This document shows positions 15,463-21,428 of a DNA stretch of 64,000 nucleotides, in pieces. The translations under genes were made by a program, and so were the position numbers. Under the pieces are notes generated by a model, which had not been told where the DNA came from, made no database searches, and saw only the letters and a program-made list of their open reading frames with translations. This DNA is from Shimia ponticola. GTDB lineage: Bacteria > Pseudomonadota > Alphaproteobacteria > Rhodobacterales > Rhodobacteraceae. Position 1 is the first letter of the stretch; every line of letters begins with the position of its first letter. The stretch spans positions 62,001-126,000 of the forward strand of contig NZ_VCDK01000006.1 of assembly GCF_007995215.1 (NCBI RefSeq), written 5' to 3'.

Positions 15463-16482
15463 ATGGCCAAGAAGCCCGATAACCAGACCAATCTAGGCGT
15501 CTATGACACGCCAAAGAATCAGGGCATGTCCGCAATCGAAGTGATCGCGATTGCGCTCTCTGCGCTGTGGTTGCTTGGGTCTGCCGTATTCTTCCTTGGG
15601 ATGGGCGGGACATCGGTATTCGAGGCAGAAAACCGCGACACGCTCCAATTTGTCATGACTTTGCTGGCCGTGTTCCTTCCGGTGGCTGTCATCTGGGTTG
15701 CGGCTTCGGCGGCACGGTCGGCGCGGATCGTGCGCGAAGAAAGCCGTCGTTTGCAGGCAGCGATTGATGCGATGCGCCAGACCTATGTTGCCGACCGGCA
15801 GGCCCACGGGATCGCAAAGCAGCCCGAAGTCGAAAAGAAACTCGATGAAATCGCACAGGCCGCCAAGCAGACCGAGACCGCCGTTGCCACCTTTGCGTCG
15901 TCTCGCGAAAAGGCTGGGGCGGCCCCGGCGCGGGCTGCGGAGAGCAAGCCATCGGTCGATATGGATCAACCCGCTTTGCAGTTGGGGACCCCGCCAGAGG
16001 ATCTCGAGCCGCCCGTTGACCGCGCAGATTTCATTCGGGCGTTGAATTTCCCCGAAACGGCAGAAGATCAGGAAGGGTTCACCGCGCTGCGGCGCGCGCT
16101 GAAGGATCGCAAGGCCGCAGGCCTGATCCAAGCCAGCCAAGATGTTCTGACGCTTCTGAGCCAAGACGGCATTTACATGGACGACCTGCGCCCTGATCGC
16201 GCGAAACCGGACATCTGGCGCCGTTTTGCACAAGGCGAGCGTGGGGCGGCAGTGGCTGTTCTCGGCGGTATCCGGGATCGCTCAGCGCTTGCCCTCGCAG
16301 CGGGACGGATGCGGTCGGACGCGATTTTTCGTGATGCGGTGCACCACTTCCTGCGGAAGTTTGACACGATGCTAAGCGAGTTCGAGCAGGATGCGACTGA
16401 TGAGGATATCTCGGAACTCAGCAACACCCGCACCGCGCGGGCGTTCATGCTGATGGGGCGTGTCACCGGGATGTTCAGCTAA
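15463..16482 (+). CDS. Conserved membrane protein with coiled coil, unknown function
   Basis: A 339-residue protein I do not recognise from a named family. It has two probable transmembrane helices (about residues 24-47, SAIEVIAIALSALWLLGSAV, and 65-82, LLAVFLPVAVIWVAASAA), then an Arg-, Glu- and Ala-rich helix likely to form a coiled coil (about 88-150). A disordered Pro/Ala linker follows, and the C-terminal domain from about 185 is soluble and alpha-helical (DRADFIRALNFPETAEDQEGF... GERGAAVAVLGGIRDRSAL). The layout resembles a cytoplasmic scaffold anchored to the inner membrane. It follows greA by 28 bases and overlaps the GNAT gene tail-to-tail by 8 bases. Confidence 0.75.
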   Translation: MAKKPDNQTNLGVYDTPKNQGMSAIEVIAIALSALWLLGSAVFFLGMGGTSVFEAENRDTLQFVMTLLAVFLPVAVIWVAASAARSARIVREESRRLQAAIDAMRQTYVADRQAHGIAKQPEVEKKLDEIAQAAKQTETAVATFASSREKAGAAPARAAESKPSVDMDQPALQLGTPPEDLEPPVDRADFIRALNFPETAEDQEGFTALRRALKDRKAAGLIQASQDVLTLLSQDGIYMDDLRPDRAKPDIWRRFAQGERGAAVAVLGGIRDRSALALAAGRMRSDAIFRDAVHHFLRKFDTMLSEFEQDATDEDISELSNTRTARAFMLMGRVTGMFS

Positions 16483-17086
16483 CGCGCTGATCACCTGCAG
16501 GCGTCACAGGTCGCAACATGGTCGTGGCTGTCTTGAACCCCATGAGAGGTGCGAGGAAACCGGTTGAAACGGTGCCTGCGGGCGCAAAGCCACGCCTTTC
16601 GTAAAGCGCCCGAGCCCTCGGATTGGTGTCGATCACATCAAGGCGGACATCTTGATAGCCGTTCATTTCTGCCGTCCAGATGATCGCCTTGAGCAATTCG
16701 GTGCCGACACCTTGGCCGCGTGCGCTGTGTTTGACGAAAATCCCGTCCATCAAGAGCGTACCCGGCGCGACAGGACGTTCAAATTGTTCGAGAAGTATTC
16801 CGCGCCAAAGCCCGCCGATCCGCCCGTAGATTGCGTTCAGATCCTTCAGATCGCCGGTCAGGAACCCGCCTTTTTCGGTCTTGATTCCCGCCACACCCAG
16901 CAGGCTGCCATCCGGCGCGCAGGCGCTGAAGGCAAAGTTCCGGCTCAGGTTGGGGGCGATGAACCTGAGGGCCTTTTCTCGGGGACCCAGCGGCGTCATC
17001 AGTTTACCCTCGAAGGCCTGCCAGAAAAGCTCTGAGGCTTCGGCGCGGTGGGCCTCTGCAAAACCGGGTATCACTTTGATGGTCAT
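16475..17086 (-). CDS. GNAT-family N-acetyltransferase
   Basis: A 203-residue acetyl-CoA-dependent acyltransferase-fold protein. The acetyl-CoA loop is seen in HSARGQGVGTELLKAIIWTA (R-G-x-G-V-G type), followed by motif B with NPRARALYERRGFAPAGT, including the tyrosine usual for the general acid. The substrate is unknown. It is the last gene of the molybdenum-cofactor operon: its ATG overlaps the moeA stop (ATGA), so it is coupled to that pathway at least in expression. Alternatively it is a simple passenger. Confidence 0.85.
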   Translation of the reverse strand: MTIKVIPGFAEAHRAEASELFWQAFEGKLMTPLGPREKALRFIAPNLSRNFAFSACAPDGSLLGVAGIKTEKGGFLTGDLKDLNAIYGRIGGLWRGILLEQFERPVAPGTLLMDGIFVKHSARGQGVGTELLKAIIWTAEMNGYQDVRLDVIDTNPRARALYERRGFAPAGTVSTGFLAPLMGFKTATTMLRPVTPAGDQRVS

Positions 17087-19167
17087 AGGCCAAAGCCCGC
17101 GAAGGGCATGTAGGTCACGGGCGTGCCCGGTTCGATCACGGCAGCACCGTCTGGCAATTCAACGAGGCCATCGGCCCACGAGAGACCGGAGACGCGGCCT
17201 GATCCCTCGGACCCGAACACTTCTGAGCAGCCGTTTGTCAGGCGCGCGCGCAGATATTCGCGGCGACCGGGTTTCTTGTTCTTTGAAAAAGCCGCCGGGA
17301 CGGTGAGCTTGATCGGCTCTGACCAGCCTGCTCCGGCGAGTGCCGACAGCGCTGGGCGCGCGAAGATGAGCGTGCAGACGAAGGCGGCGACAGGATTTCC
17401 GGGCAGGCCAAAAACGGGCGCGCCGTTCCACACAGCCAAGGCCAATGGGCGCCCCGGTTTCACGGCAATCCGCCAAAGCGCCATGGAACCAGTGCCGCGC
17501 AGCAGGGCCGACACGTGGTCCTCGTCACCAGCCGACGCGCCGCCGGATGTCAGGATGACGTCGGCCTGTGAGGCACCTTGGTTGAGTTTGTTTTCGACGT
17601 CGCCTCGGTCGTCGCGGGCGATGCCCAGATCGACGACCTCATAGCCCCATTTGCGGATCACCTCGGCAAGCATGGGGCGGTTTGCGTCTGCAATCTGGCC
17701 CGGGGCAAGCGGCGCTCCAGGGGGCTGAACCTCGTCACCAGTGGACAGGATGCCAACGCGGAGCGGGCGGTGGACAGTGACGTCTTTGATCGCCGTGCTG
17801 GACAGCAGCGCGAGGTCAGGCGCCGTCAGGCGGCGACCGGCGGGCAGGGTGATGTCGCCTGCCACCACATCCTCGCCCGCCTTGCGGGTGTTCGCGCCCG
17901 GTTTGAGCGGACCTTCGACGGTGATCTCTGTCTCCGTAGCGCGCACGTCTTCCTCAAGCACAACGGTGTCGACGCCATCTGGGAGCGGAGCACCGGTCAG
18001 GATGCGGAGGGCTTGTCCCTGTGGCAGTGTGCCGGTCCATGGGACGCCAGCGGCGGCGCGGCCAGCGGCGAGCGGGATGTGATGCAGGCCGGGTGTCAGG
18101 CCACCTGCAAAGCCGTAGCCGTCAACAGCGGAGTTGGCGTGAGGCGGGTGGGAGCCTGCGGCAATCGCATCTTTTGCGAGGATGCGTCCCCCGGCAGCGT
18201 GGGCTGGAATGGTTTCGGTTCCGGTGACTGGGGTCAGGCGGTCGCGGAGCATATCCATCGCCTCATCGACCGGCGTCCAGTGAGTGCCGGGAGGAAGAGC
18301 GAAACAGTCGTTACGCAGGCGACCTTGTCGTGCTGCCGCGGCGAGCTTTTGCTCGTGGCCAAGGCCGAAAATCCAGCCTTCTTTCGGGGCGTGGACGTCC
18401 AGCATTTGCTCCAATTCGGTCGGAGAAAGGCGAGAGACCGCGGCAGCAAGGGTGCGGACTTGGGCCGCATCCTTGATTTCGTCTGGCTGCTGGTTCGCGG
18501 CAACTTCGGCTGCGATGAGCGAGGGCCAGATTTCGATGAAAGCGATGGGCCGGTCGAGAGGTTCGAACGGCCAGACTGCAATCTGGTCCGGGAACATCGC
18601 ACGCAAGGATTGAAGAATCGGCAAACCCATCAGGACCTGAGACCCAACTGCACCTGCACCGCCCATCTGCCAGCAGGTGAAAGCGCCCTTGGCGAGGGTT
18701 TCAGCCTTGCGCAGCTCGGTGACAGGCAGCGTCGGAGGTTTCTTGCGCGATAACCCGTCAATTTCGCGCTTGATCCCGTTGAACCAGAATGGGCCATCAC
18801 CGGGCAAAAGCGCGTTCATCTGCGCGGCAAGGTCAAAACGGTTTTTGCCATCCTTCAGGTCACCCGCACGGTCGGTGATCCATTGCCAAAGCGCAAAGGG
18901 ATCGTCAGACCCGGTGATGTGGCGCGCGAACCCCTGCGGGTAGCCGAAGGGAAAATCGAAGCCAATCATCAGACGTTCACCGGCGTCGAGCGTCTTCTGG
19001 ATTTCCTCGGCCAATCTGTCGCGCGCGATCAGGCGGTTGCGGACGTATTCGGGGGCGTCCGCATGGCCGCCTGCGGCACGAGCCATCCAGATGGCATCCT
19101 TCTTTGGCGTCGGCCCCGTGTCGCCGCCACCAGTCCAGTCGACCATGAGGACGGCGTCGAAGGTCAA
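17083..19167 (-). CDS. moeA: Molybdopterin molybdenumtransferase MoeA with extra N-terminal RNase-H-like domain
   Basis: A 694-residue fusion. Residues from about 290 are a full MoeA, which inserts molybdenum into adenylylated molybdopterin: SAVDGYGF, RILTGAPLPDGVDTVVLEED, GILSTGDEV, the MoCF-type loop TSGGASAGDEDH and GLPGNPVAAFVC. The first ~285 residues are not part of MoeA. They show spaced acidic motifs (VDWTGG with D10, GFDFPFGYP with D71, EIWPSL with E212, KDAAQVRTLAAA with D233) resembling the DUF429-type predicted nuclease with RNase H fold. No frameshift or stop separates the halves, so one polypeptide is made. Its start overlaps mobB, its stop overlaps the GNAT gene. What the N-terminal part does is unknown. 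Confidence 0.88.
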   Translation of the reverse strand: MTFDAVLMVDWTGGGDTGPTPKKDAIWMARAAGGHADAPEYVRNRLIARDRLAEEIQKTLDAGERLMIGFDFPFGYPQGFARHITGSDDPFALWQWITDRAGDLKDGKNRFDLAAQMNALLPGDGPFWFNGIKREIDGLSRKKPPTLPVTELRKAETLAKGAFTCWQMGGAGAVGSQVLMGLPILQSLRAMFPDQIAVWPFEPLDRPIAFIEIWPSLIAAEVAANQQPDEIKDAAQVRTLAAAVSRLSPTELEQMLDVHAPKEGWIFGLGHEQKLAAAARQGRLRNDCFALPPGTHWTPVDEAMDMLRDRLTPVTGTETIPAHAAGGRILAKDAIAAGSHPPHANSAVDGYGFAGGLTPGLHHIPLAAGRAAAGVPWTGTLPQGQALRILTGAPLPDGVDTVVLEEDVRATETEITVEGPLKPGANTRKAGEDVVAGDITLPAGRRLTAPDLALLSSTAIKDVTVHRPLRVGILSTGDEVQPPGAPLAPGQIADANRPMLAEVIRKWGYEVVDLGIARDDRGDVENKLNQGASQADVILTSGGASAGDEDHVSALLRGTGSMALWRIAVKPGRPLALAVWNGAPVFGLPGNPVAAFVCTLIFARPALSALAGAGWSEPIKLTVPAAFSKNKKPGRREYLRARLTNGCSEVFGSEGSGRVSGLSWADGLVELPDGAAVIEPGTPVTYMPFAGFGL

Positions 19168-19655
19168 AGGCCCACCTCGGCCAAAATGAAATCCGCAATC
19201 GACGACGTGTCATTCAGGTTGAATTTCTGACGGTCGGTCTCAATGTCCGTGTCGCTGGCCACCGCCTTGATCGTATCATCGCCGGGGGCGATCAGCGGGT
19301 TCTTTGTCTCGGCGCGCCATGCCTCGACCTTGGGATGGCGGTCGCGTTTCCACCCTTCGATCAAAACAAGGTCCACAGGCGCGAGCTTGGCGAGCAAGTC
19401 CGACAGTGGTGGCTCCTCTTCCTCGCGCAACTCGGTCATCAGCGCCCAGCGTTTGGACGAGGCCAAGAGAACCTGATGCGCGCCTGCGTCGCGGTGGCGG
19501 AAGCTGTCCTTGCCGGGCTGGTCGACATCGAATTGATGGTGTGCGTGTTTGAGGGTTGAGACGGTGAACCCGCGACCCGTGATCTCGGCCACCAGCCGCT
19601 CCATCAATCCGGTTTTGCCTGCGTTTTTCCAGCCAGTGATACCGTAGACCTTCAT
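19164..19655 (-). CDS. mobB: Molybdopterin-guanine dinucleotide biosynthesis adaptor MobB
   Basis: A 163-residue P-loop GTP-binding protein that assists MobA in adding GMP to molybdopterin. Seen: MKVYGITGWKNAGKTGLMERLV with the Walker A GWKNAGKT at the N-terminus, then STLKHAHHQFDVDQPGKDSFRHRDAGAHQVLLAS, the family signature, and DLVLIEGWKRDRHPKVEAWR. The ATG at 19655 is placed immediately before the P-loop and overlaps the mobA stop (ATGA). The frame is open upstream but reads through mobA. Confidence 0.95.
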   Translation of the reverse strand: MKVYGITGWKNAGKTGLMERLVAEITGRGFTVSTLKHAHHQFDVDQPGKDSFRHRDAGAHQVLLASSKRWALMTELREEEEPPLSDLLAKLAPVDLVLIEGWKRDRHPKVEAWRAETKNPLIAPGDDTIKAVASDTDIETDRQKFNLNDTSSIADFILAEVGL

Positions 19656-20260
19656 CGCAAAAGCTCCTGCGCGCGGATCAGGTCGTCCGGCGTGTTGACG
19701 TTGAAAAAGGGATCGAAAGGGGAGGCCGGGAATTCGGCCATGGCGGTGCCATGGCGGTCGGTCCATGCGACAACCTTGCGGGTACCATCGGCGAGCGCCT
19801 GTCGCAGATCGTCGGCGAGGTTGGTGGGCCAGAGGCCAAATGTGGGATGCCGGGCCATGCCGCGCTCGGGATCGGGAGTGGCTGCAAGAGCGATGGCGCT
19901 GTCTGGCGTTAGAGATGCCTTCAGCCGCGCGACCAGATCGGTCGGAAAGAATGGAGTGTCTGCGGCGACGGTCACGATGTGATCAGCCCCCTGCGCCGCG
20001 CCCCAGACCATGCCAGCCAGAACGCCTGCCAAGGGTCCAGCAAAGTCGGTTGTTTCGTCAGCGATGACAGGCAGCCCGTAATTTGCGAAACGGTTTGCAT
20101 CGCCATTGGCGTTCAGAGCCATGGTTCTGACCTGTGGTCCCAAGCGATCAATGACGTGCTGCAAAAGCGGTTTATCCCCAAGATCAAGCAGCCCTTTGTC
20201 ACCGCCGCCCATGCGCCGTGACAGGCCACCAGCAAGTATAACGCCGACAGGTGCAGTCAT
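19652..20260 (-). CDS. mobA: Molybdenum cofactor guanylyltransferase MobA
   Basis: MobA transfers GMP from GTP to Mo-molybdopterin, giving the bis-MGD cofactor used by formate dehydrogenase and DMSO-reductase-family enzymes. The 202-residue protein has the nucleotidyltransferase motif GVILAGGLSRRMGGGDKGLLDLGDKPLL at the start, then TVAADTPFFPTDLVARL with the metal-binding Asp and FFNVNTPDDLIRAQ at the end. The ATG at 20260 lies six residues before LAGG and overlaps the stop of the preceding gene (ATGA). Confidence 0.95.
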   Translation of the reverse strand: MTAPVGVILAGGLSRRMGGGDKGLLDLGDKPLLQHVIDRLGPQVRTMALNANGDANRFANYGLPVIADETTDFAGPLAGVLAGMVWGAAQGADHIVTVAADTPFFPTDLVARLKASLTPDSAIALAATPDPERGMARHPTFGLWPTNLADDLRQALADGTRKVVAWTDRHGTAMAEFPASPFDPFFNVNTPDDLIRAQELLR

Positions 20261-20598
20261 GAGGCCACCGTTGCGGGTTTGCTGAGCGCGATGGCTGACA
20301 ACAGACACAGCGTTGCGATCATGGCCGTGAGCCAGCCAAATGCCGCTGCGAGGATCAAAATCATCAAGGCGGCCTGCAAGGCGCAGAGGCTGCGGAAACG
20401 CAAAACCGCGGCCCGCAAATGAGGTGTGCCGCCTTCGACACCGCGCGCCATGATCCGCCAAGACAAAGCTTGGTCGCCTGCATCCAGATTGCCGATCTCG
20501 CTCACGCGTTGCCACGCGACAATCGCGGCAATGAACAGCGCAAGCAGCCCAAGGAAGGCGAGCACCAGCAACAGCACAATGGCGTGGATCGAGGTCAT
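20257..20598 (-). CDS. Small membrane protein in the molybdenum-cofactor operon
   Basis: A 113-residue protein with a hydrophobic N-terminal helix (about residues 4-28, LLLVLAFLGLLALFIAAIVAW), a polar middle and a second long hydrophobic segment or helical hairpin near 70-108 (LMILILAAAFGWLTAMIATLCLL). I do not recognise a family. The ATG at 20598 overlaps the fdhD stop (ATGA), and its own stop overlaps mobA (ATGA), so it is translated as part of the operon. A role in the membrane handling of a molybdoenzyme is conceivable but unproven. Confidence 0.75.
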   Translation of the reverse strand: MTSIHAIVLLLVLAFLGLLALFIAAIVAWQRVSEIGNLDAGDQALSWRIMARGVEGGTPHLRAAVLRFRSLCALQAALMILILAAAFGWLTAMIATLCLLSAIALSKPATVAS

Positions 20599-21428
20599 GT
20601 GTCCGCGTCCCAGATCAACCGCTCTGCGCCAGACAGGCATTCAAACCGTTTTCCCCGTAACCGGCCAATGACCGTGAGGCCAACATCGCGGGCAATCTCG
20701 ACACCCCAAGCGGTGAAGCCGGAGCGTGACACCAAAACCGGGATGCCCATGATTGCGCATTTGATGACCATTTCCGAAGTCAGTCGGCCGGTCGTATAGA
20801 GGATCTTGTCTGCGCCGTTTACGCCTTCGGCGCGCATCCATCCGGCGACCTTATCGACGGCGTTGTGGCGTCCGACATCCTCCATGTACACCAAGGGCTG
20901 GTCGCGGCCACAGAGGACCGTACCGTGGATCGCCCCTGCCGACAGATAAAGGCTCGGCGTGCGGTTGATGCGTTCGGCTAAGGTGTAGAGCCATGAAGTG
21001 TGGACCACAGCCTGCGGTAGCGTCAGCCCTTCTAGCCCCGCCATCATGTCTCCGAACACCGTACCAACCGCGCAGCCAGAAGTGCGGGTTTTCCGCTTGA
21101 GCTTGTCTTCGTGGTTCGTCTCGACCTCGGTGCGGACGACCACGGTTGCGACTTCTTCGTCATAGTCGACGGCAGTGACCTGATCGTCTGGCGACAGCAT
21201 GCCCTGATTGCGCAGGAAGCCAAGCGCCAGATACTGCGGATAGTCCCCTATCGTCATGGCGGTCACGATTTCCTGCCGGTTCAGGTATATTGTCAGGGGG
21301 CGTTCTTCGACGACTGAAACTTCGCTCGTTTCCCCAAGATGATTGGTAGAGGACACGGTGCGTGCCAGACCCGTTTTGTCAGGGTCCGGTGCGATCACGT
21401 AGCCGTCGATGTCGGACCGTGTGGCCAT
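20595..21428 (-). CDS. fdhD: Formate dehydrogenase accessory sulfurtransferase FdhD
   Basis: FdhD moves sulfur from a cysteine desulfurase to the molybdenum centre of formate dehydrogenase. The 277-residue protein shows EERPLTIYLNRQEIVTAMTIGDYPQYLALGFL, TSGCAVGTVFGD (with the conserved Cys), MEDVGRHNAVDKVAGW and the C-terminal TTGRLTSEMVIKCAIMGIPVLVSRS. Where E. coli FdhD has a Cys-x-x-Cys pair, only the first Cys is kept. First gene of the six-gene operon, which implies that the cell makes a formate dehydrogenase or related molybdoenzyme encoded elsewhere. Confidence 0.95.
   Translation of the reverse strand: MATRSDIDGYVIAPDPDKTGLARTVSSTNHLGETSEVSVVEERPLTIYLNRQEIVTAMTIGDYPQYLALGFLRNQGMLSPDDQVTAVDYDEEVATVVVRTEVETNHEDKLKRKTRTSGCAVGTVFGDMMAGLEGLTLPQAVVHTSWLYTLAERINRTPSLYLSAGAIHGTVLCGRDQPLVYMEDVGRHNAVDKVAGWMRAEGVNGADKILYTTGRLTSEMVIKCAIMGIPVLVSRSGFTAWGVEIARDVGLTVIGRLRGKRFECLSGAERLIWDADT

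Follow-up and report, generated by a model that had tools for sequence, protein, structure and literature searches.

The MoeA frame in the analysed stretch of Shimia ponticola DNA (64,000 nucleotides, hereafter the window) is a fusion of a complete MoeA with an additional N-terminal domain, referred to here as domain X. X represents a real domain family that has been overlooked and is repeatedly associated with cofactor enzymes, and comparison with its relatives identified it as a separate protein family of Alphaproteobacteria. MoeA, MobA, MobB and CobH are well studied, yet many Alphaproteobacteria carry this highly conserved, uncharacterised domain attached to them, and our search of the open-licence literature found no description of it in Moco or B12 synthesis. 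We infer, with a probability of about 0.4, that X is a predicted metal-dependent phosphoester hydrolase that acts beside cofactor assembly and is fused to neighbouring cofactor enzymes. Should X have a cofactor-related activity, it would supply an accessory function that is so far missing from the picture of Moco and B12 assembly.

Fused frame and operon of the window

The initial annotation described a single frame that joins an N-terminal domain of about 285 residues to a complete MoeA, and both the 694-codon frame (Table 1), which is identical in the whole genome, and its Pfam domains bear this out. MoeA_N, MoCF_biosynth and MoeA_C each scored over their cut-offs and span residues 299–689. 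The MoeA half aligned over its full length with the E. coli MoeA chain 1fc5 (E 9e-74), and this alignment shows that the fused protein retains the active-site residues of the E. coli enzyme, namely the aspartates and the lysine that we take to be D59, D228, D259 and K279. Because the two halves are encoded by separate genes in some relatives, we consider the domain border to be real. That X is a known MoeA insertion is ruled out, since no part of MoeA is missing when X is left aside and relatives have X as a gene of its own. The term "fused" denotes one stop-free frame throughout this work, from which a single polypeptide is presumed. We saw no convincing ribosome-binding site before any start codon between the two halves, and the first in-frame ATGs of X-moeA are codons 304 and 306, which lie within MoeA.

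The frame is part of an operon with the gene order fdhD, small membrane-type ORF, mobA, mobB, X-moeA and GNAT acetyltransferase, in which all five junctions are 4-base overlaps, as expected from the six-gene coupled operon proposed initially. The TTG start of X-moeA overlaps the mobB stop as TTGA. In several relatives (e.g., L005, L009, and L014), GTG occupies the X start position instead and overlaps TGA. The 113-codon membrane-type ORF, which could not be assigned to a family, is inserted between fdhD and mobA with a 4-base overlap on each side.

A GNAT acetyltransferase gene was located near X in 11 Moco-type loci (the window, L028, L043, L065, L174, L180, L185, L186, L193, L200, and L201), including loci that contain neither moeA nor mobB. 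This protein may be part of the same module as X. A riboswitch connecting the Moco and B12 operons was considered and dropped, as Rfam searches of ten X loci and the window returned no match except one tRNA. The results speak neither for nor against the regulatory nucleotide function that was suggested initially.

Table 1. Positions of the operon genes, domains and selected residues in the window.
Feature	Position	Strand	Basis or remark
fdhD	20595..21428	minus	Pfam FdhD-NarQ
Small membrane-type ORF, 113 codons, no family	20257..20598	minus	Pfam/NCBIfam searches; junctions
mobA	19652..20260	minus	TIGR02665 above its cut-off
mobB	19164..19655	minus	Pfam MobB; stop overlaps X-moeA start
X-moeA frame	17083-19167	minus	694 codons (694 aa), TTG 19167 to stop 17085-17083
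Domain X, residues 1-285	18313..19167	minus	TTG start overlapping mobB stop; predicted RNase-H-like fold
D10	19138..19140	minus	End of strand 1 (strand 5-10); invariant in 134 X and 7 sister sequences
D71	18955..18957	minus	Just after strand 66-70; invariant
E212	18532..18534	minus	In strand 208-213; invariant
D233	18469..18471	minus	Start of helix 232-246; invariant in X
E263	18379..18381	minus	EEGWILG motif; invariant in X
Linker followed by the full MoeA (domains I-IV, residues 299-689)	17083..18312	minus	Pfam; E. coli MoeA chain 1fc5
R573 (E. coli K282 position)	17449..17451	minus	KPGRP motif of MoeA half
A594 (E. coli S303 position)	17386..17388	minus	GLPGNPVAA motif of MoeA half
GNAT acetyltransferase	16475..17086	minus	Pfam; ATGA overlap with X-moeA stop

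Family, fold and conserved residues of domain X

Residues 1–285 matched no Pfam family. In NCBIfam, residues 2–276 matched positions 166–448 of the model NF011066 (PRK14495, "MobB/unknown domain fusion") with an E-value of 4.5e-52, and the C-terminal unknown domain of PRK14495 thus belongs to the same family as X. As a whole protein, the window frame scored 177.6 bits against this model, below the cut-off of 596, and it has no N-terminal MobB. In PRK14495 the domain sits behind MobB, whereas in the window X precedes MoeA, and MobB is encoded by a gene of its own that overlaps X-moeA. Because the match is to the second half of PRK14495, the X family was known earlier, but as a nameless domain. 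On annotated plasmids the X-MoeA fusion is labelled merely as a gephyrin-like molybdotransferase, so that the X domain goes unnoticed.

To model the fold, we used an alignment of 63 sequences, composed of the window and 62 of the 64 fetched loci, which are named as Rhodobacteraceae or related genera. The resulting AlphaFold (AF2) model of X has a pLDDT of 92.8 and a pTM of 0.92. Foldseek returned no match below E 0.01 with this model, and its top PDB rows were mostly RNase H, YqgF and terminase nucleases. With VIA-align the best Z was 7.4 and nearly all rows were RNase-H-like proteins (RuvC, Spt6, Cas9/Cas12, terminase, and RuvX), including a Lactococcus phage RuvC, whose core fold resembles X with a Z of 7.0 over 129 residues. 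Among solved structures, none is related to X by detectable sequence similarity. The model supports the placement of X in the RNase-H-like (RuvC-type) fold class; with Z below 8 and Foldseek E above 0.01, this assignment is based on the consistency of the hits and on the positions of the acidic residues.

These acids follow the arrangement of RNase-H-like folds, at the end of strand 1 (D10), after strand 4 (D71) and at the start of a late helix (D233), and thus occupy places equivalent in fold order to those of RuvC, YqgF, RuvX and other RNase-H-like nucleases. In contrast to these nucleases, X has strands 4 and 5 separated by a large insertion and contains many additional invariant residues. 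The RNase-H-like character proposed initially for the N-terminal domain, which folds separately from MoeA, is therefore upheld by the model, the structural matches and the retained acids, and the fold search led to RuvC/RNase-H-like folds rather than to a known MoeA insertion. The acidic residues D10, D71, E212 and D233 were located as claimed in the initial annotation and, together with E263, are invariant in the 63 close relatives and throughout the 134 X sequences compared.

For comparison by genomic context, the 134 sequences were divided into 85 Moco, 20 B12 and 29 other members. R45, N118, W128, R153, Q177, G181 and P200 are identical in all of them, whatever the context, and R110 and Q236 are constant in all but one. 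Since all contexts, including those outside cofactor operons, keep the same residues, we argue for one common activity of X. The many invariant arginine, asparagine, glutamine and tryptophan residues would be unusual for a non-specific nuclease and identify no substrate. At twelve positions the residue type distinguishes the Moco from the B12 group (e.g., Y41/N, N44/T, Q167/K, and W214/Y); these positions may mark descent rather than substrate, because X sequences from other contexts mostly agree with the B12 group.

A sister family of X is present in other Alphaproteobacteria (L131–L138). Its members are about 290 residues long, carry DWSGA and DHxGDAL motifs and belong to no Pfam family, and they match X at 99.9%. 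A phage origin of X was dropped, as the phage collection gave no match.

Distribution, gene contexts and history of X

We identified X in 240 of 391 Rhodobacterales genomes, with one copy in each. A MobA match was present in all 391 genomes and was above its cut-off in 385, and by this comparison X is accessory. Across the class, 43 of 385 genomes contained a strong X match (E 1e-39 or better), and the other matches were weak and partly represent the sister family. About 150 of the 391 Rhodobacterales genomes thus have MobA without X. This weakens the suggestion, made initially, that the fusion points to an unrecognised step of the molybdenum pathway, which also appears too narrow because close relatives of X occur in cobalamin operons and form fusions there. 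The same genomes favour a reading of X as an operon passenger, i.e., a protein with a general cell function, such as nucleic-acid or nucleotide housekeeping, which would have nothing to do with cofactors and would have been put in cofactor operons, and fused there, for expression.

In the 144 X loci retrieved with flanks, nearby markers corresponded to Moco genes in 86, to cobalamin genes in 20 and to neither in 38, the last including eight sister-family loci; this sample is not random, as close relatives were collected first and many non-fused cases were later taken deliberately. Fused frames in this non-random sample comprised X-MoeA in 50 loci (49 in the tree set), X-CobH in 14, MobB-X in one (L186) and MobA-X in one (L192). 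In Rhodobacteraceae, X is mostly located in a mobA/mobB/moeA operon, either fused to MoeA or separate, as in Ruegeria pomeroyi, whose operon contains X as an independent gene. About 15 loci of this family have X behind mobA and lack both mobB and moeA nearby.

The second recurrent setting is the B12 operon. The order cbiX-X-cobH-cobL-cobI was found in 10 of 32 non-Rhodobacterales loci, and eight Rhodobacteraceae loci contain X-CobH in the same B12-operon setting. In other Rhodobacteraceae and other Alphaproteobacteria, B12 operons have X placed between cbiX and cobH and often fused to CobH. For the X-CobH frame of L103, Pfam identified the CobH half as CbiC (E 5e-66) and the X half was matched by NCBIfam.

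X was also found outside any cofactor operon, in about 20 of the 32 non-Rhodobacterales loci and in some Rhodobacteraceae, and its link to cofactors may accordingly be loose. The neighbours in these loci are varied and include transporters, CCA/poly(A) polymerase, ScpB, a MutY-like gene and a HyuA-like frame. Because many X genes outside Rhodobacteraceae have such unrelated neighbours, the passenger reading is a serious rival. On the other side, the cofactor association recurs, as cbiX-X-cobH in several families and as mobA-X in Rhodobacteraceae, and X is fused to four different cofactor enzymes, so that we regard a mere passenger as somewhat unlikely. In two of these loci the partner was identified by eye. 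In L100:3663-6674, from a fragmented assembly, X shares one frame with a hydantoinase/oxoprolinase A-like protein, and in L175:3923-5894, a Rhodobacteraceae locus with no cofactor operon, X directly follows the MutY-like gene.

In a quick tree, most Moco-type members of X group together, and some B12-type Rhodobacteraceae are placed among them. A single Moco clade was not rejected by the one-clade test (p-AU 0.805), in which the better tree was the constrained one; hence, we do not claim that within Rhodobacteraceae X has moved repeatedly between the two types of operon, Moco and B12. The fusion state changes up to 27 times on the quick tree, a figure that is inflated by frame calling, and these changes suggest frequent fusion and fission of X.

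The MoeA pocket pair and the proposed role of X

The genome of the window contains two MoeA genes, the X-fused one with an R/A pocket and a housekeeping one with a K/S pocket. The latter is located on contig 6 of this genome (G000; L002:1498-2673) behind a moaC-like gene and carries the motifs RPGKP and GLPGNPVSA. All 61 readable X-linked MoeA frames carry KPGRP and GLPGNPVAA. In Methylorubrum extorquens, the tungstate-selective MoeA1 is reported to feature Arg291 and Ala312 at the pocket positions and to work with MobB, whereas MoeA2 serves Mo (PMC13197769). The fused MoeA has the same pair in R573 and A594, with the arginine in KPGR and the alanine in NPVA, and its gene, like that of MoeA1, shares an operon with mobB; an X domain is not mentioned in the passages of that study considered.

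The R/A pair was also read in 21 of 22 mobAB-type MoeA loci (L212–L233), many of them from genomes without X. Since mobAB-linked MoeAs without X have this pair too, we attribute it to the mobAB branch rather than to X. A requirement for X with R/A-type MoeA is ruled out by the occurrence of R/A-type MoeA without X, and several mobA-X genomes gave housekeeping-type MoeA matches only. The formate dehydrogenase (FDH) of Rhodobacter capsulatus is a Mo enzyme, and for this reason the R/A pair may be a marker of the bis-MGD branch and not of tungsten.

X is often its own gene within a cofactor operon and has been fused to whichever cofactor enzyme adjoins it, i.e., MoeA in the window and CobH, MobB or MobA elsewhere. 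Under the preferred reading of X as a phosphoester hydrolase, the domain would be catalytically active and dependent on a divalent metal, with D10, D71 and D233 together with E212 as the putative catalytic acids. Its target, at a guess, would be a nucleotide or a phosphorylated small molecule linked to the late stages of cofactor assembly, and clearing a by-product or a wrongly made intermediate is a possible task. The purpose of being fused to MoeA would lie in co-expression and proximity, with the chemistry of MoeA left unchanged.

X looks like an accessory enzyme common to several cofactor pathways rather than a one-gene quirk. A more specific version, in which X performs one catalytic or metal-handling reaction usable in both corrin (B12) and bis-MGD assembly and has been fused in turn to CobH, MobA, MobB and MoeA, strikes us as quite improbable. 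If true, it would mean an unrecognised accessory step common to two unrelated metal cofactors, with a single-copy gene serving either pathway.

Alternatively, X could be a non-enzymatic scaffold or a metal/cofactor handler that holds intermediates between MobA, MobB and MoeA or between CbiX and CobH. Its fusion to several successive late-Moco enzymes, and to CobH beside the cobalt chelatase CbiX, is consistent with this role, as are the contacts of Methylorubrum MoeA1 with both MobA and MobB (PMC13197769). However, the acidic cluster and the arginine, asparagine and glutamine residues are strictly kept in every context, also outside cofactor operons, and look catalytic, and X is dispensable in many genomes; we therefore consider a scaffold unlikely.

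The initial description of the domain as DUF429-like did not hold at the sequence level: Pfam searches with PF04250 (DUF429) gave no match for the window X, for any of the 63 relatives, or for the sister family, and none in the window's own genome, and hhalign of X against a profile of nine PF04250 members gave a probability of 2.5% (E 0.019, 29 columns). DUF429 has been placed in the RNase H-like superfamily (PMC3985635), so that the two may be remote cousins, and its motif DMPIGLP resembles GFDFPFGYP after strand 4 of X. A DUF429-type nuclease acting on nucleic acid would agree with this similar local motif and with a general fold class that the two may share; set against the search results and the small-molecule cofactor enzymes that neighbour X, it is an improbable identity for the domain.

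In L155:577-2211, a single frame carries a pyridoxal-kinase-like sequence followed by DUF429 proper (PF04250), and in L164 the two adjoin each other, the kinase being recognised by eye. These two loci would provide a further link between an RNase-H-like domain and a cofactor pathway.
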